Shown one piece after another: positions 2,570-33,433 of a stretch of DNA of 38,866 nt. The DNA is from Modestobacter caceresii. Lineage in GTDB: Bacteria; Actinomycetota; Actinomycetes; Mycobacteriales; Geodermatophilaceae. Below the pieces are notes generated by a model that was given only the letters and a program-made list of their open reading frames with translations, ran no database searches and was not told where the DNA came from. Location of the stretch: assembly GCF_000761485.1 (NCBI RefSeq), contig NZ_JPMX01000118.1, forward strand, positions 147,136 to 186,001. Direction: 5' to 3'. Positions within the stretch are counted from its first letter, which is position 1. The number at the start of each line of letters is the position of its first letter. A program made the position numbers and the translations under genes.

Positions 2570-3550
2570 TCACGGGTGTGTTCCAGGCGCCCCGGACGAT
2601 ACCGCATCGTGATCACCGGACAGCGGGGTGACGACCGCGCCGGTGGGGTCGACGGGCAGCGGCCGGCACTCCCAGCCCGCCGGCGTCGCCTCCCGCAGGG
2701 CCCTGACCTGCACGGCAGCATCCAGCGCACCGGCGTCCTCGTCGGGACCGAGCACCGCCAGCGCCAGCACGCACGGACCGGCGCCGGAGACGACGGCGGC
2801 GTGCCCGTCGGCCCGCAGCCGGGCCAGCAGGGCGGCGCTCTCGGGCATGGCCGGCGCCCGCTGCGCCTGGTGCAGCCGGTCCTCGGTGCCCTCGAGGAGC
2901 AGGGCCGGGTCGCGGGTGAGCGCGTGCACCAGGAGTGCGGAGCGACCGGCGGCGTGTGCGGCGTCGGCGTGCGGCACCGTCTCGGGCAGCAGCCCCCGGG
3001 CCAGGTGCGTGGCCAGCGTGGTGGCCGGGACGAACAGCACCGGGGCGATCCGCGGGTCGACGGCCAGCCGCGCGGCGCGTGCGCCGGAGGGCGTCGTCCA
3101 GGACAGCGTCGCCCCACCGAGCAGGCACGGGGCGACGTTGTCCGGGTGGCCCTCCAGCTCCGAGCACAGCCGCAGCACGGCCTCGGCGTCGACCTCGGCG
3201 ACGTCGGGGCACAGCGCCCACGCCGCCAGGACCCCCGCGGTCACCGCCGCGGCGGAGGAGCCCATCCCCCGGCCCTGCGGGATGGTGTTGCGCGCGGACA
3301 ACCGCAGGCCGGCCGGCGTCCACCCCAGCTCGGCCGTGGCCGCCCGGAACGCGCGCACCACCAGGTGCGACTCGTCGGTCGGCAGCTCACCGGCGCCGGC
3401 ACCCGCCACCTCCACGGTCAGCCCACCGTCGGTGACGGCGATGTCGAGGGAGTCCCAGCAGGACAGCGCCAACCCGGCACAGTCGTAGGCCGGACCGAGG
3501 TTCGCACTCGTCGCCGGGACGCGGATCCGGGCCGCGGCGGGCTGCTCCAC
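2570..3550 (-). CDS. thrB: Homoserine kinase
   Basis: Phosphorylates L-homoserine with ATP, the penultimate step of threonine synthesis in the cytoplasm. 326 residues, usual size for bacterial ThrB. It is a GHMP kinase: the N-terminal VPATSANLGPAYDCAGLAL is the family's first motif, and the Gly/Ser-rich phosphate loop IPQGRGMGSSAAAV follows near residue 90. The glycine-rich third motif appears as AAVVSGAGPCVLAL. The GTG start directly follows the thrC stop codon with no gap, so the two are probably translationally coupled. It is the last gene of the argS-lysA-hom-thrC-thrB run. Confidence 0.96.
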   Translation of the reverse strand: MEQPAAARIRVPATSANLGPAYDCAGLALSCWDSLDIAVTDGGLTVEVAGAGAGELPTDESHLVVRAFRAATAELGWTPAGLRLSARNTIPQGRGMGSSAAAVTAGVLAAWALCPDVAEVDAEAVLRLCSELEGHPDNVAPCLLGGATLSWTTPSGARAARLAVDPRIAPVLFVPATTLATHLARGLLPETVPHADAAHAAGRSALLVHALTRDPALLLEGTEDRLHQAQRAPAMPESAALLARLRADGHAAVVSGAGPCVLALAVLGPDEDAGALDAAVQVRALREATPAGWECRPLPVDPTGAVVTPLSGDHDAVSSGAPGTHP

Positions 3551-11001: not shown

Positions 11002-11073
11002 GCCCCCGTAGCTCAGGGGATAGAGCACTGCCCTCCGGAGGCAGGGGCGCAGGTTCGAATCCTGCCGGGGGCA
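11002..11073 (+). tRNA. tRNA-Arg (anticodon CCG)
   Basis: The cloverleaf is complete: acceptor stem GCCCCCG/CGGGGGC, D stem GCTC/GAGC, anticodon stem CTGCC/GGCAG with loop CTCCGGA (anticodon CCG at 11035-11037), and T arm GCAGG-TTCGAAT-CCTGC. The discriminator base is A, and CCA is not encoded. It reads CGG codons, which are frequent in this GC-rich genome. Confidence 0.97.
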
Positions 11074-16994: not shown

Positions 16995-19900
16995 GTGTCA
17001 AGCGTGAGCTCATCCCAGCCGTCCCCCGCCCACTCCGCCAACCCGGTGGCGGGCTTCGGCACCAACGAGTGGCTGGTCGAGGAGATGTACCAGCAGTACC
17101 TCGCCGATCCACGGAGTGTGGACCAGGCCTGGCACGACTTCTTCGCCGACTACCGGCCCGGCAGCCCCGTCGCCGACGGCCAGGACCGCTCCTCCGAGCC
17201 GGCCGAGCCCGCTGAGGCGGCCGAGCCCCCGGCGTCCGAGGCGGCGGCCGCGCCGTCGGCCACCACCTACGCCTCCCCCGCGCCCAGCCGAGAGGTCGCA
17301 CCGCAGATGACCCAGTCGGGTCCCGCCGCGCCGAAGCCGGCACCCGCCAGCACGAGCTCCGCCGAGGAGTCCGGGTCCGACAAGGGGTCCGCCGACAAGG
17401 GGTCCGCCGACAAGGGCGCCTCCGACAAGGGCGCCTCCGACAAGGCCGCCTCCGACAAGGCCGCCGCCCCGGCCGCCCGTGCCGCCCAGAGCGACGCCCG
17501 GTCCGAGGGCACCGTGGTGGCCCGGGCCGCCGAGCGCGCCTCGCAGCAGAAGCCGGCGGCACCGGCCAAGCCGGTCGTCAAGCCGGGGGCCGGTCGCGCC
17601 ACCGCCGACGAGGACGGCGGAGGCCCGAAGCGCACCCCGTTGCGCGGGGCCGCCGCGAGCGTCGTGAAGAACATGAACGCCTCGCTGACCGTGCCGACGG
17701 CCACCAGCGTGCGGGCGGTGCCGGCCAAGCTCATGGTCGACAACCGGATCGTCATCAACAACCACCTGGCCCGCGCCCGGGGCGGGAAGATCTCCTTCAC
17801 CCACCTGATCGGCTACGCGCTGGTCCGGGCACTGGACGACTTCCCGAACATGAACAGTGCGTTCGCCGAGGTCGACGGCAAGCCGGTGCACGTCCAGCCC
17901 GAGCACATCAACTTCGGCCTGGCCATCGACCTGCCCAAGCCCGACGGCACCCGCTCGCTGGTGGTGGCCTCCATCAAGGGCGCCGAGGCGATGGACTTCG
18001 CCGCCTTCTGGGGCGCCTACGAGGACATCATCCGGCGGGCCCGGGCCGGCAAGCTGACGATGGAGGACTTCTCCGGCACGACGATCAGCCTCACCAACCC
18101 GGGCACCATCGGCACCAACCACTCGGTGCCGCGGCTGACCACCAACCAGGGCACGATCGTCGGCGTCGGCGCGATGGACTACCCGGCCGAGTTCCAGGGG
18201 ATGAGCCCCGAGGCACTCGCCGAGATGGCCGTCTCGAAGATCATCACGCTGACCTCGACCTACGACCACCGGGTCATCCAGGGCGCGGAGTCCGGCGACT
18301 TCCTCCGCCGGATGCACCAGCTGCTGCTGGGCCAGGACGGCTTCTACGACGACGTCTTCCGCTCGCTGCGCATCCCCTACGAGCCGGTCCGCTGGGTGCC
18401 CGACAAGCGGATCAGCCACGAGGGCCAGATCGACAAGGAAGCCCGGGTCATCGAGGTCATCGAGGCCTACCGGCGCAACGGCCACCTCATGGCCGACACC
18501 GACCCGCTCGAGTTCAAGGTCCGCACCCACCCGGACCTGGACATCGTCCAGCACGGGCTGACCCTGTGGGACCTCGACCGGCCCTTCCCGGTCGGTGGCT
18601 TCGCCGGCGAGCGCACGATGCTGCTGCGCGACATCCTCGGCGTGCTGCGCAACTCCTACTGCCGCACCGTCGGCGTGGAGTACATGCACATCACCGACCC
18701 CGAGGAGCGCCGCTGGCTCCAGGAGCGCATCGAGGTCAAGCACGACCAGCCCAGCCGGGACAAGCAGAAGCGCGTGCTCGGGCGGCTCAACGCCGCCGAG
18801 GCGTTCGAGACCTTCCTGCAGACGAAGTACGTCGGCCAGAAGCGGTTCAGCCTCGAGGGCGGCGAGTCGGTCATCCCGCTGCTGGACGAGGTGCTGGTCA
18901 GCTCCTCCGAGCACGGCATCGAGGAGGTCGCGATCGGCATGGCCCACCGCGGCCGGCTGAACGTGCTGGCCAACGTCCTCGGCAAGAGCTACGCCAAGAT
19001 CTTCGGCGAGTTCGAGGGCAACATCGACCCGGGCACCGTGCAGGGCTCCGGCGACGTGAAGTACCACCTCGGGGCCGAGGGCACCTTCGAGCACGAGGGC
19101 CGTTCGGTCGCGGTCTCGCTGGCCAGCAACCCCAGCCACCTGGAGACGGTCAACCCGGTGCTCGAGGGCATCGTGCGGGCCAAGCAGGACATGATCGACA
19201 AGGGCGAGGGCGGCTTCACCGTGCTGCCGCTGCTGCTGCACGGCGACGCGGCGTTCGCCGGCCAGGGAGTCGTCCAGGAGACCCTGAACCTCTCCCAACT
19301 GCGCGGCTACCGCACCGGCGGCACCGTGCACGTGGTCATCAACAACCAGGTCGGCTTCACCACCAGCCCGGCCCAGTCCCGTTCGACCCTCTACTCCACC
19401 GACGTGGCGCGGATGATCGGCGCTCCGGTCTTCCACGTGAACGGGGACGACCCCGAGGCCTGCGTCCGGGTGGCCAAGCTGGCGGTCGACTACCGGCAGG
19501 AGTTCAAGAAGGACGTCGTCGTCGACCTCGTCTGCTACCGCCGGCGCGGGCACAACGAGGGCGACGACCCGTCGATGACCCAGCCGCTGATGTACGACAT
19601 CATCGACCGCAAGCGCTCGGTCCGGAAGCTGTACACCGAGGCGCTCGTCGGCCGCGGTGACATCACGCTGGCCGACGCCGAGGAGGCCCTGAAGGACTAC
19701 CGCGGGCAGCTCGAGCGGGCCTTCGCCGAGACCCACGACGCCCGTGACTCCTCCGCGCCCGAGCCGGTCATGGACCCGCGCTCGCCGCAGGAGGCCACGG
19801 TCGACACGGCGATCACCCCCGAGGTGCTCAAGGCGATCGGCGACGCACACGTCTCACTGCCGACCGACTTCACCGTGCACCCCAAGCTGCAGCGGATGCT

Positions 19901-28819: not shown

Positions 28820-29071
28820 ATGGACTGGCGCCACCGCGCGCTCTGCCGGGACGAAGACCCGGAGCTCTTCTTCCCGATCGGGACGACGGGCCCGGCAGTC
28901 GTCCAGATCGAGCAGGCCAAGGCTGTGTGCGGCCGTTGCCCGGTCGTCGAGTCCTGTCTGGACTGGGCGCTGAGCTCGGGCCAGGACTCCGGGGTCTGGG
29001 GCGGGTTGTCCGAGGACGAGCGCCGTGCCTTGAAGCGCCGTACCGCGCGCACCCGGGTCCGCACCGCCTGA
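28820..29071 (+). CDS. whiB1: WhiB-family iron-sulfur transcriptional regulator WhiB1/WblE
   Basis: 83 residues. The four cluster ligands are C9, C37, C40 and C46 (CGRCPVVESC), spaced exactly as in M. tuberculosis WhiB1; the GVWGG turn and the basic tail RRALKRRTARTRVRT bind sigma A and DNA. WhiB1 is a nitric-oxide-sensitive [4Fe-4S] regulator, essential in mycobacteria. It is convergent with pdtaS, the same arrangement as Rv3219/Rv3220c. A palindromic repeat begins inside its stop codon. Confidence 0.95.
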   Translation: MDWRHRALCRDEDPELFFPIGTTGPAVVQIEQAKAVCGRCPVVESCLDWALSSGQDSGVWGGLSEDERRALKRRTARTRVRTA

Positions 29072-29127
29072 AGAAGGACCCCGTCCCCCTCTCCCTTCGC
29101 ACGCTCAGGGTGAGCCTCCGGACGGGG
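29070..29127 (+). repeat. Dispersed palindromic element, copy A
   Basis: Begins in the whiB1 stop codon with GAAGAAGGACCCC, has an outer stem CCCCGTCC/GGACGGGG (29079-29086 with 29120-29127) and carries the core TCGCACGCTC. Related copies lie at 30677-30733 (reverse orientation) and 32960-33017. It can act as part of the whiB1 terminator, but the family is not restricted to gene ends. Confidence 0.8.
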
Positions 29128-29181
29128 CTGAACGACAGCAGGGACCGCTCCGTGACCGGAGCGGTCCCTGCTGTCGTTCAG
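29128..29181. terminator. Perfect 25-bp inverted repeat between convergent whiB1 and pdtaS
   Basis: Arms 29128-29152 and 29157-29181 are exact complements around the loop TGAC. The right arm contains the pdtaS stop codon (minus strand, 29180-29178), so the pdtaS transcript enters the hairpin at its stop. It follows directly on palindromic copy A, giving two hairpins in tandem. A bidirectional terminator is the simplest reading. Confidence 0.85.
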
Positions 29182-30659
29182 CGGCGGGGCCGGCCGGCGC
29201 CCGGGAGGCTGAGCACCGCCTCGGTCCCCGGGCCGCCGTCCGCCGGCGGTCCCATCTCCAGCGTCCCGTGCAGCTCGCTGGTCACCAGCGTCCGCACGAT
29301 CTGCAGCCCGAGCCCGGTGCTGGCCGCCGGATCGAAGCCCGGCGGCAGCCCGCGCCCGTCGTCGCGGACCCGGACCACCAGGTCGTCGCCCGTCCGCTCG
29401 GCAGCGAGCACGATCGTCCCCGGCTCGCCGTCGTCGAACGCGTGCTCGGCCGCGTTGTGCAGCAGTTCGGTCACCGCCATCACCAACGGCGTCGCACACG
29501 CCGCGGGCAGCTCCCCGATCACGCCGTCGCGGGTGATCCGGGCGGCCGGCCCCACCGACGTCACGTCACCGAGCATCGGCAGCACCTGGTCGAGGACGTC
29601 GTCGACCTCGACGACGTCCTCCCGGCTGCCGGCCAGCGTCTCGTGGACCACCGCGATCGAGGCCACCCGGCGCACCGACTCCTCCAGCGCCGCCCGGGCC
29701 GCCGGCTCGGTCATCCGCCGGGCCTGCAGCCGCAGCAGCGCGGCCACGGTCTGCAGGTTGTTCTTCACCCGGTGGTGGATCTCCCGGATGGTGGCGTCCT
29801 TGGTCATCAGCGCGCGGTCCCGGCGGCGCACGTCGGTGACGTCGCGGACCAGCACCAGCGCGCCCTCCTCACCGCCGGGGGCCTGCAGCGGCAGGGCTCG
29901 GACCAGCATGGTGGCCGCGTCGTTCTCCACGTCCATCGGCTCGGGGAACCGGCCGGCCACCGCTGCGGCGATGCTCGCGGCCACGGCCTCACCGGCCACC
30001 CGGTCCGCCGAGACCTGCCGGGTCACCTCGCCCAGGTCGGACCCGACGACGTCCCCGGTCACCCCCATCCGCCGGTAGGCCGACAGGGCGTTCGGGCTGG
30101 CGTAGACCGCGTGCCCGGTGCCGTTCAGCCGGACCAGCCCGTCGCCCACCCGCGGGCTCATCTCCGCGTCGTCCAGCATGCGCGGCGGGAAGGTGCCGGC
30201 CGCCACCATCAACGAGAGGTCCGCGGCGATGTCGAGGTAGGTGAGCTCCAGGGTCGACGGCGACCGGGTCGCCGCCAGGTTGGTGTCCTTGGCCAGCACC
30301 GCGACCACCGCACCGTCGTGCCGGACGGGGATGACCTCCCGACGGCGGGGGCTCGCCCCCGACCAGTCGGGATCGCCGTCGGTGATCGGCCGCCCCTCCC
30401 GCTGCGCACGCACCAGCGGCTCGGCGTCCGCCCCGGTGGCCTCACTGCCCACCAGGTCCTCCGGCTGGCTCGTGGGCGCCGTCAGCGGGCGCACCTGGGC
30501 CACGCACCACCAGGCCCCGGTCTGCAGCGGCACCCACAGCGTGAGGTCGGCGAAGGAGAGGTCGGCCAGCAGCTGCCAGTCGGCCACCAGCCGGCGCGCG
30601 TGGTCGACCTGGGACGGGCTGGCCGAGCCACGGGTGAGACGTTCGGACAGGCTGCTCAT
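29178..30659 (-). CDS. pdtaS: Sensor histidine kinase PdtaS
   Basis: 493 residues and cytosolic, with no membrane helix. N-terminal GAF-like domain (about 30-160, with LTLWVPLQTGAWWCVAQVRP), a PAS domain (about 170-280), then the HisKA_2/HATPase module. The phosphoacceptor His is in TIREIHHRVKNNLQTVAALL near residue 295; N-box VMAVTELLHNAAEHAF and G-boxes VRDDGRGLPPG and STGLGLQIVRTLV follow. In mycobacteria PdtaS phosphorylates the antiterminator PdtaR (ANTAR domain), and responds to copper and nitric oxide. pdtaR is not in the window, and is unlinked in M. tuberculosis too. The neighbours whiB1 and a biotinyl protein match that species. Confidence 0.95.
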   Translation of the reverse strand: MSSLSERLTRGSASPSQVDHARRLVADWQLLADLSFADLTLWVPLQTGAWWCVAQVRPLTAPTSQPEDLVGSEATGADAEPLVRAQREGRPITDGDPDWSGASPRRREVIPVRHDGAVVAVLAKDTNLAATRSPSTLELTYLDIAADLSLMVAAGTFPPRMLDDAEMSPRVGDGLVRLNGTGHAVYASPNALSAYRRMGVTGDVVGSDLGEVTRQVSADRVAGEAVAASIAAAVAGRFPEPMDVENDAATMLVRALPLQAPGGEEGALVLVRDVTDVRRRDRALMTKDATIREIHHRVKNNLQTVAALLRLQARRMTEPAARAALEESVRRVASIAVVHETLAGSREDVVEVDDVLDQVLPMLGDVTSVGPAARITRDGVIGELPAACATPLVMAVTELLHNAAEHAFDDGEPGTIVLAAERTGDDLVVRVRDDGRGLPPGFDPAASTGLGLQIVRTLVTSELHGTLEMGPPADGGPGTEAVLSLPGAGRPRR

Positions 30660-30669
30660 CGTGAGCCGG

Positions 30670-30675
30670 AGCCTA
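30670..30675 (-). promoter_or_regulatory. -10 box of pdtaS (near-leaderless)
   Basis: TAGGCT on the minus strand ends 10 nt before the pdtaS ATG, so the leader would be only a few bases. Palindromic copy C abuts it upstream and occupies the -35 region. Confidence 0.5.
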
Positions 30676-30676
30676 C

Positions 30677-30733
30677 GGCCCTGTCCGGAGGCTCACCCGA
30701 GCCTGCGAGGGAGGAGTGGGACAGGGGCCTTTG
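30677..30733 (-). repeat. Dispersed palindromic element, copy C
   Basis: Read on the minus strand it starts AAAGGCCCCTGTCC, carries the core TCGCAGGCTC, and closes with GGACAGGGCC. The outer stem is 8 bp (30679-30686 with 30719-30726). It aligns along its length with copy A, but one stem pair is T-A where copy A has C-G. It lies between the divergent pdtaS and acetyltransferase genes, filling the space between their -10 boxes. Confidence 0.78.
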
Positions 30734-30735
30734 TC

Positions 30736-30741
30736 TACCCT
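30736..30741 (+). promoter_or_regulatory. -10 box of the GNAT gene (leaderless)
   Basis: TACCCT ends 6 nt before the GTG at 30748, with no ribosome binding site between them. The -35 region falls inside palindromic copy C. Confidence 0.6.
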
Positions 30742-30747
30742 GCTCCG

Positions 30748-31245
30748 GTGGCCATCCCCGCACCCGTCGTCGGCCCGGCCGGGCCCGCGGACCACGCCCG
30801 CATCGCCGAGCTCACCGTGGCCGCCTACGCAGCCGAGGACCTCGCACCGGCCGAGTACCTGCCCCAGCTGGCCGACGTGGCGGGGCGGGCGGACCGCGCG
30901 GAGCTGCTGGTGGCCCGCGACCACGACGGGCGCATCGTGGGCAGCGTGGCGCTGGTGCTGTCCGGGGACTTCGGCGAGGTCGTCGAGTCCCCGGACGAGG
31001 CGGCGTTCCGGATGCTGGCGGTCGACCCCGGAGCGCGCGGCCAGGGCATCGGGGCGGCGCTCGTGCGCGCCTGCCTGGACCGGGCCCGGTCCGCCGGCAA
31101 ACGACGGATGGTGCTGTCCACGGGCGAGCGGATGACCGCAGCGCACCGGCTCTACGCCCACCTCGGCTTCACCCGGCTGCCGGAGCGGGACTGGGCGCCG
31201 GTGCCCGGCATCGACCTCCGGGTCTACTCCCTCGACCTGGCCTGA
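30748..31245 (+). CDS. GNAT family N-acetyltransferase
   Basis: 165 residues, single GNAT domain. Strand 4 and the acetyl-CoA loop are FRMLAVDPGARGQGIGAALV (R/Q-x-x-G-x-G/A form), followed by KRRMVLSTGERMTAAHRLYA and a C-terminal LGFTRLPERDW, the usual order. The GTG start is leaderless. It lies between pdtaS (divergent) and the biotinyl-domain gene (convergent). The substrate is unknown; M. tuberculosis also has an acetyltransferase gene near sigH, but orthology is not claimed. Confidence 0.9.
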   Translation: MAIPAPVVGPAGPADHARIAELTVAAYAAEDLAPAEYLPQLADVAGRADRAELLVARDHDGRIVGSVALVLSGDFGEVVESPDEAAFRMLAVDPGARGQGIGAALVRACLDRARSAGKRRMVLSTGERMTAAHRLYAHLGFTRLPERDWAPVPGIDLRVYSLDLA

Positions 31246-31247
31246 CG

Positions 31248-31273
31248 GGCCCCGTCCTCCCCCGCCCGGGGTC
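31248..31273. terminator. Possible hairpin between convergent GNAT and biotinyl-protein genes
   Basis: GGCCCCG (31248-31254) can pair with CGGGGTC (31267-31273), with one G-T wobble and a 12-nt loop. It is the only pairing seen in the 29-bp gap and overlaps the end of the GNAT stop region only slightly. Confidence 0.4.
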
Positions 31274-31274
31274 G

Positions 31275-31499
31275 CTACGCCGGGACGACGGTGGCGATGA
31301 GGTCGCCCTCCTGGAGCACCTCGCCCTCGACCACGTGCAGCTCGCCGATCGTGCCGGCGCGCTCACTGAGCACCGGGATCTCCATCTTCATCGACTCGAG
31401 GATGACCAGCGTGTCACCGGCGGCGACCTCCGCACCGGGGGCCACGAGCACCTTCCACACGCTGGAGACCATCTCGGCGTGGATCTCCTCGACCGCCAC
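31275..31499 (-). CDS. Stand-alone biotin/lipoyl attachment domain protein (TB7.3-like)
   Basis: 74 residues consisting only of a biotinyl domain. The modified lysine is in LVILESMKMEIPVLSE (ESMKME is the biotin signature). The protein ends GDLIATVVPA. It matches the size and context of M. tuberculosis Rv3221c (TB7.3). GTG 31499 is preceded by GAGGGGG. Upstream on the same strand lies a biotin-carboxylase-like gene ending about 100 bp away, a suggestive pairing of carrier and carboxylase relative. The acceptor of any carboxyl group is unknown. Confidence 0.92.
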   Translation of the reverse strand: MAVEEIHAEMVSSVWKVLVAPGAEVAAGDTLVILESMKMEIPVLSERAGTIGELHVVEGEVLQEGDLIATVVPA

Positions 31500-31599
31500 C
31501 GGCGCCCCCTCTTCCCTGACCCGCCACGATCCGCCTGAGCCGACGGTGTGCTCATGAAAGCACGCATGGGGGCCTGCACCGCACCATGCCGAGCAGCGG

Positions 31600-32652
31600 T
31601 CAGGTGCAGTCGGGGACGAGCGCACCGGCGATGCGCTGCAGCACGTCGCAGACGGCCGCACCGTCGTGCGGGACGCCGGTCTCCGGGAGACCGGCGAGGA
31701 GCTCCGTCGCCGCCCGCGCGGCGCTCGCCGCATCGGGGCCGGCGGCGCTCACCGTGGCCAGCAGTGCGTCGTACCAGCCGTCGAGCCGGTCGCCTGCGTC
31801 GTAGCCGCTCACCGCGACCAGCTGGGCGTCCCCGGCCGCCCGCCGGTCAGCGACCACGACGTCGGGCAGCCGGCCGGTGACCCGTCCCGCAGTGCCCGGT
31901 GGCAGCGTCGACCGCAGCTGGACGGCGAGGCCGGCGTACGGCGGCCCCTCGGCAGCGTCCAGGGCCCCGCCCGCCGGCGTGCCGGACACCCTGCCCAGCG
32001 CGAGCGCGACGGCGTCCAGCCCGTGTGCCCGCTCGAGCACGGCCATGTCCAGGGAGAAGCCCGCCGCCACCTCGGCCAGCTCCCCGCCAGGGTCGATGCC
32101 CACCGTGACCAGCCCGCGCCAGCCGAGCTCGGGGAGCCGCCGGGCGGCCGCGGGCAGTGATCCCAGCCCGTCGGGGGGCGTCCAGGAGACCCGTGGGGTG
32201 CCGCCGGCGCGGTCACGCAGCACCGGGGTGACGTGGTGCAGCCCCTCGGCACTGACCCAGGCCAGGAAGCCACGCTCACTGGCCGGCTCGACGCCGTCAC
32301 CGCCGAGGCGCTCGAGCACCCCGGCCTCCGGCCCGATCCAGCCCAGCCCGGCGTCGGCCACCGCTGCGGCCAGCCGTGCGTTCCCGGCCAGGGCCGGGGG
32401 GACGGGCAGCACCGCGTCGACCCGCGTGCGGCGAGCGGCCTCCACCAGCCGGCGCACGTCCAGGTACGACTCCGCTGCCGGCGCAGGACCCAGCAGCACG
32501 GACTCGTCGGCCATCCGCACGTGCCGGGCGTCGCGTTCCGCCTCCGAGTACACGGCCACGGCCTTCACGCCCAGCCGGCCGCACGCCCGGATCACCGCGC
32601 AGGCCATCGGCCCCCGGCCGGCCACGAGCACGCTGTCGACTGCCTGGACCAC
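31600..32652 (-). CDS. Degenerate biotin-carboxylase-like protein
   Basis: 350 residues against about 450 for a true biotin carboxylase. The N-terminal domain (about 7-120) is recognisable from VLVAGRGPMACAVIRACGRL, VKAVAVYSEAERDARHVRMA and GLGWIGPEAGVLERLGGD. Catalytic features are lost: the usual GEIA is GPMA, the HPGYGFLSEN loop is LPVPPALAGN, GDK is GGD, and no glycine-rich ATP-grasp loop is seen. The middle is shortened; the C-terminal third (VVVADRRAAGDAQLVAVSGYD, then an alanine-rich helix and ELLAGLPETGVPHDGA) resembles the biotin carboxylase C domain. GTG 32652 has GAGGAG 5 nt upstream. It precedes the biotinyl protein gene. A non-enzymatic or altered role is inferred. Confidence 0.8.
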   Translation of the reverse strand: MVQAVDSVLVAGRGPMACAVIRACGRLGVKAVAVYSEAERDARHVRMADESVLLGPAPAAESYLDVRRLVEAARRTRVDAVLPVPPALAGNARLAAAVADAGLGWIGPEAGVLERLGGDGVEPASERGFLAWVSAEGLHHVTPVLRDRAGGTPRVSWTPPDGLGSLPAAARRLPELGWRGLVTVGIDPGGELAEVAAGFSLDMAVLERAHGLDAVALALGRVSGTPAGGALDAAEGPPYAGLAVQLRSTLPPGTAGRVTGRLPDVVVADRRAAGDAQLVAVSGYDAGDRLDGWYDALLATVSAAGPDAASAARAATELLAGLPETGVPHDGAAVCDVLQRIAGALVPDCT

Positions 32653-32666
32653 GTCGTCTCCTCTTC

Positions 32667-32713
32667 CCGGCTGCGCCGGCGTCCTGCGCTCACCGGCTGC
32701 GCCGGCCTCCTGC
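32667..32713. repeat. Direct repeat upstream of the carboxylase-like gene
   Basis: CCGGCTGCGCCGGC plus one variable base plus TCCTGC occurs at 32667-32687 and again at 32693-32713, a 26-bp period. Each half is also a small palindrome (CCGGC-TGC-GCCGG). It lies just upstream of the carboxylase-like start, in the 234-bp region divergent to bL37. The rest of that region shows no clear promoter box. Confidence 0.6.
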
Positions 32714-32886
32714 CGATGGCCCGTCCCACCGCTGGTCCCGACCGTGCACCAGCGCACGGTGCCGGGCCCACCCGTGAGAGCCTTGCAGGGTCAGCTTGGC
32801 CGGTGCCGGGGTGCTCTGCATCCCGCGCCGGGACCGATCAGCAGCCGGGCCCCCGCCCGGGTGGAGCACAGAGAGGAGGGGCAGCC

Positions 32887-32961
32887 ATGTCCAAGCGTGG
32901 ACGCAAGCGGCGCGCCCGCAAGAAGAGCGGCGCCAACCACGGCAAGCGCCCCAACGCCTGA
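32887..32961 (+). CDS. 50S ribosomal protein bL37
   Basis: 24 residues, MSKRGRKRRARKKSGANHGK followed by RPNA. It matches the actinobacterial ribosomal protein bL37, first seen in mycobacterial ribosome structures, in length, strongly basic composition and the NHGKRPN ending. GAGGAGG lies about 7 nt upstream of the ATG. It is easily missed because of its length. Palindromic copy B begins inside its stop codon. Confidence 0.9.
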   Translation: MSKRGRKRRARKKSGANHGKRPNA

Positions 32962-33017
32962 AGAAGGACCCCCTTGCCCCCACTCGCAAGCTCGCGGTGG
33001 GTCCCTGCAAGGGGGGC
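32960..33017 (+). repeat. Dispersed palindromic element, copy B
   Basis: Begins in the bL37 stop codon with the same GAAGAAGGACCCC as copy A. The outer stem is CCCCCTTGC/GCAAGGGGG (32969-32977 with 33007-33015), plus GG/CC beyond one mismatch. The inner stem is CCCAC/GTGGG (32979-32983 with 32997-33001), then CGC/GCG. The loop core is TCGCAAGCTC. It lies between the convergent bL37 and rsrA genes and can act as a terminator for both. Confidence 0.82.
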
Positions 33018-33037
33018 CGGAGAGCGCTCCGCCGCCG

Positions 33038-33433
33038 TCAGGCGGTGGGGCGCTCCTCCGGGAGCTCGCCGCGGGTCTCGAAGCTCGTCGTCTCGAAGGT
33101 CGTCGTCTCGATGCTGGCCTTCTCGACGCGCACCTGGGTGCCGTCCTCCTCGAACGAGACGGTCGTCAGCTGCACCTTGATCCGGTCGCGCAGGCCCATC
33201 GGCGTGGGGTCACCGCCACAGCGGCGGCGCACCAGCGCCTTGAACTCCTGCTCGATGCCGAACTGGCGCAGACAGGGCGAACAGTCCTCGAGGTGCTCGG
33301 CGATGACCGCGCGCCGGGCGTCGTCGGTCTCGTGGTCGAGGAACTCGAAGACGTGGGAGAGCACGTCGTCGCAGGAGGTGACCTCCTCGCCGTGGAGGTC
33401 GTGCCGGGCGCCGTCGTGAGCGTCGGTGCTCAT
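33038..33433 (-). CDS. rsrA: Mycothiol-system zinc-binding anti-sigma factor RsrA/RshA
   Basis: 131 residues. It binds and inhibits SigH/SigR, and lets it go on thiol oxidation. The zinc anti-sigma motif HxxxCxxC is [14 protein letters not shown] (H47, C51, C54); C21 ([15 protein letters not shown]) is the additional Cys found in RsrA near the N-terminus, and C72 is extra. The C-terminal half (about 75-131) is an acidic, Thr-rich tail longer than usual. The ATG overlaps the sigH stop by 4 bp, so sigma and anti-sigma are made together. Confidence 0.93.

Follow-up and report, generated by a model that had tools for sequence, protein, structure and literature searches.

The three hairpins present in a 38,866-nucleotide stretch of the Modestobacter caceresii genome (assembly GCF_000761485.1, contig NZ_JPMX01000118.1, positions 147,136 to 186,001 of the forward strand; referred to here as the window) are copies of an untagged, stop-codon-anchored REP-like family without a RAYT. 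Hairpins of about 58 bases, of which individual genomes from a group of soil bacteria harbor dozens to more than 100 copies, look like a new REP-like repeat. No repeat of such kind is described for Geodermatophilaceae in the titles and abstracts listed by searches of the open-licence literature, and in the accessible part of a Geodermatophilaceae genome paper (PMC9686282) the word "palindromic" refers to CRISPR only. We see about an even chance that the family is a dispersed REP-like element that acts at the site of ribosome termination, is mobile or otherwise turned over, and spread without RAYT. Its placement in sense directly behind stop codons, as a rule of the family, is absent from the sequence-only reading of the window that was followed up here.

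Searching the window with cmsearch and a covariance model (R1), which was built from 22 copies of the own genome (alignment A2, with elements A and B included and C not), recovered element A with 78.1 bits (E 5.5e-15), element B with 63.5 bits (E 8e-12) and, from outside the training set, element C with 42.9 bits (E 2.3e-7), followed by a next-best match of 12.4 bits. The three elements with their stems and the shared loop core TCGCA-N-GCTC are thus present as had been noticed from the letters, with coordinates correct to a few bases (Table 1), and two labels have to be exchanged: the CGCCTGAAGAAGGACCCC lead at the TGA is common to the elements at 29072 and 32962, each of which is flanked by convergent genes, and the copy between divergent genes is the one at 30677, not 32962. 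An Rfam scan of the window gave a tRNA at 11002-11073 as the sole match above the gathering score and left the elements unmatched.

Table 1. Elements, neighboring genes, and a separate hairpin in the window (positions in the window)
Feature	Position	Strand	Remarks
whiB gene	28820..29071	+	5' of element A; PF02467, E 1.2e-27
Element A	29072..29129	+	Directly 3' of the TGA (29069-29071) of whiB; 8-bp outer-stem class
Separate perfect 26-bp hairpin	29127..29182	+	Between element A and the 3' end of the kinase gene; -57.8 kcal/mol, z -11.15
PdtaS-like sensor histidine kinase	29178..30659	-	Convergent with whiB; PF12282, PF07568, PF02518
Element B	30677..30733	-	CCCTGTCC stem, without the bulged A; in the divergent spacer of the histidine kinase and GNAT genes
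GNAT acetyltransferase	30748..31245	+	Divergent from the kinase gene; PF00583, E 2.7e-18
24-aa basic ORF	32888..32961	+	5' of element C; called by eye from the sequence
Element C	32962..33018	+	Directly 3' of the TGA of the 24-aa basic ORF; 9-bp outer-stem class
RsrA-type anti-sigma factor	33038..33433	-	Convergent with the 24-aa ORF; TIGR03988, E 1.2e-25

The histidine kinase is 89 to 99% identical within its own genus, and its nearest named relatives (80 to 84% identity) are from Blastococcus, a genus of Geodermatophilaceae, on which grounds the family is taken to be Geodermatophilaceae; among 80 named loci around a relative of the kinase, it is two Blastococcus contigs (L175 and L176) that contain the element matches with E<0.001. 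The short ORF in front of element C is presumably the ribosomal protein bL37; the profile and database searches for its identity returned no match, and its end is conserved among orthologues. A comparison with genomes G017 and G018 showed that the inner part of element C is 4 nt shorter than theirs. The perfect hairpin next to element A is probably a terminator, and many orthologues have a hairpin in the corresponding position, whether or not they carry the element (by eye). Among the relatives within the genus, the stems of these hairpins differ and the pairing is still kept (by eye), which indicates that ordinary terminators may also change fast under preservation of pairing. Elsewhere in the window, in-register repeats with spacings of 15, 18, 21, and 30 nt (direct-repeat families D1, D3, and D5 at 1257-1657 and 17344-17468) probably encode low-complexity protein tracts.

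The family reaches far beyond the window. A blastn search with element A gave 43 matches in the own genome (E<=10, self included), and the covariance model recovered at least 134 at E<=1 and at least 120 at E<=0.01. All 23 genomes of the genus carry the element, with 23 to at least 151 matches each, as do 101 of the 112 genomes of the family, in which the counts range from 0 to at least 49 per genome. The 11 genomes without a match are G023, G051, and nine from three further genera (g6 to g8), most of which consist of hundreds of contigs. G023 (sister genus g2) and G051 (genus g3) are near-complete, and many fellow members of their genera reach at least 49 matches. Outside the family, one of 295 other genomes sampled from the class gave one weak match of 37.5 bits, with the best 18 candidates scored in each. 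The element accordingly combines the attributes of a REP-like dispersed palindrome in the broad sense, i.e., high copy number, mostly intergenic location, palindromic structure, and lineage specificity.

Structurally, the element is a bipartite hairpin that starts with GG and usually a bulged A, followed by an outer stem of 8 to 9 bp and an asymmetric internal loop; the inner stem of 7 bp contains a mismatch and is capped by a 10-nt loop with the core TCGCA-N-GCTC. According to the base frequencies of the 116 copies analyzed in the own genome, the leader reads N-GAAGG and mostly stands behind a stop codon. The outer arms vary strongly across these copies yet remain paired, and the constant terminal inverted repeats of a MITE are therefore missing. 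Variants include a copy from another genus (L389 409-464 in G046), which resembles element B in its CCCTGTCC stem without the bulged A. In L100, L124, L024, and L042, composite arrays result from a GTTCCAGCACGTCACC-like tail behind which the 3' half of the element is repeated; a looser form of the GTTCCAGCACGTCACC tail pattern is present in 22 of the 116 copies, at times in tandem (L100 and L124).

The paired positions covary from copy to copy. In the training set of 22 copies, 98.7% of the cells are paired, and eight pairs changed on both sides compared with 2.2 in shuffles. For the 111 aligned matches of alignment A3, which was fitted to the model and is hence biased towards its pairing, 96.4% of the cells are paired versus 81.9% after shuffling, and 233 cells changed on both sides versus 59 in shuffles and at most 25 with slid partners; one pair of the outer stem is C-G in 52, U-A in 29, and G-C in 23 matches. 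Twelve pairs changed on both sides versus 8.9 in shuffles, a number that 5 of 500 shuffles attain; this frequency applies to two of the five covariation measures, and kinship among the copies can inflate such shuffle-based statistics. The probability that the hairpins arose by chance in GC-rich DNA is nevertheless close to nil. In its favor, elements A and B show no unusual stability, with folding-energy z values of -0.70 and -1.64 (element C, -3.09), and folding energy by itself is weak evidence for these two; the loop core alone is weak evidence as well, with three matches in the window versus 0.66 expected and 4 of 100 shuffles reaching three. Chance does not account for a 58-nt homology across more than 100 matches, for the covariation, or for a distribution in which other genomes of the class almost entirely lack the element, and the genome-wide model matches had already refuted it. 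It is thus the genome-wide family with its covariation that lifts the three elements beyond chance. Accordingly, the lineage-specific, REP-like family with paired stem changes proposed from the sequence is borne out, and neither of the two outcomes named beforehand as speaking against it, i.e., a restriction to these three loci or a lack of covariation, arose when the covariance model was run.

The most conspicuous property of the family is its position. A coding ORF ends in sense no more than 8 nt from the 5' end of the element in 93 of the 116 own copies, and the stops beside these copies comprise 83 TGA, 7 TAG, and 3 TAA codons. A simple gene caller based on codon usage placed a sense gene upstream of 97 copies, in 90 of which the stop lies within 7 nt of the element start. 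For the sister genome G019, 79 of 90 copies, situated in stretches that were chosen around model hits, are located between -7 and +8 nt relative to a sense stop, compared with 5.9% under uniform intergenic placement on either strand. The hairpin consequently follows the stop within 15 nt, the distance that characterizes REPs acting on terminating ribosomes, in 93 of 116 own copies and in 79 of 90 copies of G019. Since the share of TGA beside the elements is about that of the background (936 of 1,056 sampled genes of G019), it seems to be the position of the stop and not the TGA sequence that matters. The register of the stop is also variable: among the 116 copies, TGA is found at -3 in 58, TGA at 0 in 17, and TAG at -1 in 9, and in the two latter groups the leader's own GA or AG finishes the stop codon. 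Given the near-background stop use and the variable register, a TGA DNA target is unlikely as the sole cause. The genes upstream of the 93 copies are diverse, and many of them have housekeeping functions.

A location at gene ends would also be expected of intrinsic transcription terminators, perhaps ones that serve convergent genes from the opposite strand, and 41 of the 116 copies were called between convergent genes. The remaining contexts are codirectional (56 copies), antisense to both neighbors (11), inside a called ORF (6), divergent (element B), and unresolved (1); element C was wrongly counted among the 11, because the 24-aa ORF escaped the caller. Past the hairpin, T makes up 36% (0.361) of 10 nt on the opposite strand versus 13% in the background, and 18 of 116 copies reach five T. 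In the sense direction, however, none of the 116 copies has five or more T within the 10 nt past the hairpin (mean T content 0.140 versus 0.132 in the background), and a canonical sense terminator was rejected for lack of a U-tract. The codirectional gene that comes next in 56 copies, the separate strong hairpin downstream at the whiB locus, the almost complete repression of terminators situated a few base pairs after a stop codon in Escherichia coli, as reported in the accessible part of PMC4824070, and the near-complete genome G023 that lacks the family all argue against this interpretation, which we consider quite improbable. The earlier caution that the family is "not simply a terminator" is hence justified by the codirectional copies and the missing sense U-tracts.

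Comparison of closely related genomes showed that the element is present, absent, or swapped at orthologous sites, i.e., it is mobile or otherwise turned over, with a rapid turnover among close species. At the site of element A (site A), 22 genomes of the genus with whiB in the locus contain 18 sense copies, two in the opposite orientation, and two without an element (by eye), and 22 genomes of other genera have zero elements there; some of the sense copies are decayed, e.g., in G017 and G022, or internally deleted (by eye). The site of element C is occupied in sense in 8 of 20 genomes, in the opposite orientation in one, and empty in 11, and both orientations as well as empty alleles occur at the site of element B (site B). 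At site B of G062, one copy is nested in the loop of another (L392, minus-strand positions 3016-3123), a single case in the loci scanned, and 8 bp or more of the outer arms are still matched. Between the own genome (G000) and G019, 69 of the 116 sites were mappable in the portion covered and 47 were not; the flanks have a median identity of 96.6% (range, 88.6 to 98.8%), and five mapped sites were dropped for long unaligned stretches. The parser classified the remaining 64 sites as similar (34), diverged or replaced (11), and empty or lost (19); in several of the last class, the flank alignment simply extends into the element, and clean absences number at least eight (rows 9, 26, 34, 61, 92, 93, 94, and 101; by eye). 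The outer stem is altered at four pairs in row 96, three in row 55, and two in row 100, with pairing kept (and one additional one-sided change in row 100), between flanks that are 93.8 to 97.6% identical, and in row 59 a 9-bp class element has given way to one of the 8-bp class. These changes are read as replacement and not as point mutation.

Among 26 unswapped orthologous pairs, a set selected for similarity and hence biased against big changes, the outer stems show eight one-sided changes and one compensated change. The predominance of one-sided changes argues against strong selection on each copy and, together with the present, absent, and swapped sites, implies that covariation is a property of the family, not of slow compensation at each site. 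The earlier proposal of upkeep by selection on structure is doubtful at the level of single sites in view of the one-sided changes and the replacement of whole elements.

An alternative is a purely selfish element without any host function, which some enzyme or recombination route would insert or copy at gene ends, with selection purging insertions elsewhere and the copies decaying later. The range from 0 to at least 49 matches among near-complete genomes of one genus (g2), the empty and swapped sites, the decayed copies at site A, the one-sided changes, and the diversity of the host genes are compatible with such an explanation, which we regard as possible, at a probability well short of even. 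Purging of genic insertions would, however, leave the whole spacer open, whereas the copies hug the stop in sense, and an intact or decayed sense element at site A in most genomes of the genus represents a long persistence for a useless insert. In G023, no element match and no repeated stop-hairpin family were found at 305 sampled gene ends (338 kb); a substitute family with at least three similar gene ends is missing, and 16 of the 305 ends have one similar partner, the examples shown being mostly two gene ends that face each other. With a loose text pattern for the element, 3 of the 305 gene ends in G023 are recognized versus 88 of 1,056 in G019. Any function of the element must therefore be dispensable.

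A linked RAYT-type transposase, as suggested from the sequence, was not found: PF01797 (RAYT/Y1) has no match at E<=0.001 in any of the 112 genomes of the family, in a search whose control recovered matches in 5 of 14 named genomes, and RAYT/Y1 was dropped as the mobilizer. From this absence we infer that spreading uses machinery other than RAYT, and mobility would then proceed through another enzyme or gene conversion. Among the 25 best-represented of 133 Pfam families in the 93 genes adjoining the copies, there is no transposase. Apparent duplications flank the element at site B (CTAG/CTA) and at site A (CTGA), and CTA repeats also occur in empty alleles of site B. The stop anchoring itself could result from targeting instead of use. 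A mobile hairpin that is steered in sense to the ends of translated genes by the position of the stop and not by a DNA target, with swapping of whole elements at fixed sites, is rather unlikely in our estimate. If true, it would imply a dispersal coupled to transcripts or translation, e.g., via an RNA or mRNA 3'-end intermediate, which to our knowledge has not been described for bacterial REPs.

Among the closest counterparts are the REPs of E. coli, which are likewise high-copy intergenic hairpins. According to the accessible part of PMC12306157, which cites Liang, Rudd, and Deutscher (2015), REPs stall ribosomes and reduce translation if they lie no more than 15 nt behind a stop codon, and 446 of 4,072 REPs, or 260 of 496 in an older count, are that close to a stop. 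In contrast to these partial figures, the stop lies within 8 nt in 93 of the 116 copies studied here, and PF01797 has no match in any of the 112 genomes. The REP types covered in the available text of PMC3733652, short dispersed palindromes as well, differ from the element in stem, internal loop, and loop sequence. That text reports that the ends of GTAG REPs often provide the TAG stop of the adjoining gene, that CGTC REPs lack a dedicated transposase and have stems of 8 to 9 bp, loops of 4 to 5 nt, and an unpaired CGTC tag, and that untagged REP-like families exist elsewhere; the strings "Actinobacter," "Blastococcus," and "Geodermatophilus" do not occur in it. An unpaired GTAG tag at the foot of the hairpin was not found in the 5' and 3' base frequencies of the 116 copies. 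The element differs from CGTC REPs in its two stacked stems, its 10-nt loop, and a consensus without an unpaired tag, and CGTC sits within the paired outer stem in the consensus of the 8-bp class. As tested, the element thus falls outside both the GTAG and the CGTC superfamily. The MIRU of mycobacteria are also short mobile repeats of actinobacteria placed by translation signals; as described in the part of PMC12548453 that was available, they carry an ORF and insert at start codons, which sets them apart from a 58-nt hairpin at stop codons.

With respect to function, if the element has any, it probably resembles a stop-proximal REP most closely and may affect terminating ribosomes or the 3' ends of mRNAs. 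By analogy with those REPs of E. coli that are 15 nt or less away from a stop codon, it might act at the site of ribosome termination by slowing release or by limiting re-initiation or 3'-to-5' decay. The genus and its relatives provide a natural experiment, with 23 to at least 151 matches per genome in the former, none in some near-complete relatives, and many filled, empty, and swapped orthologous sites. The family could therefore reveal how structured repeats disperse if RAYT is missing and what ties them to stop codons. It also offers a second phylum in which to test the role that has been proposed for REPs at terminating ribosomes.
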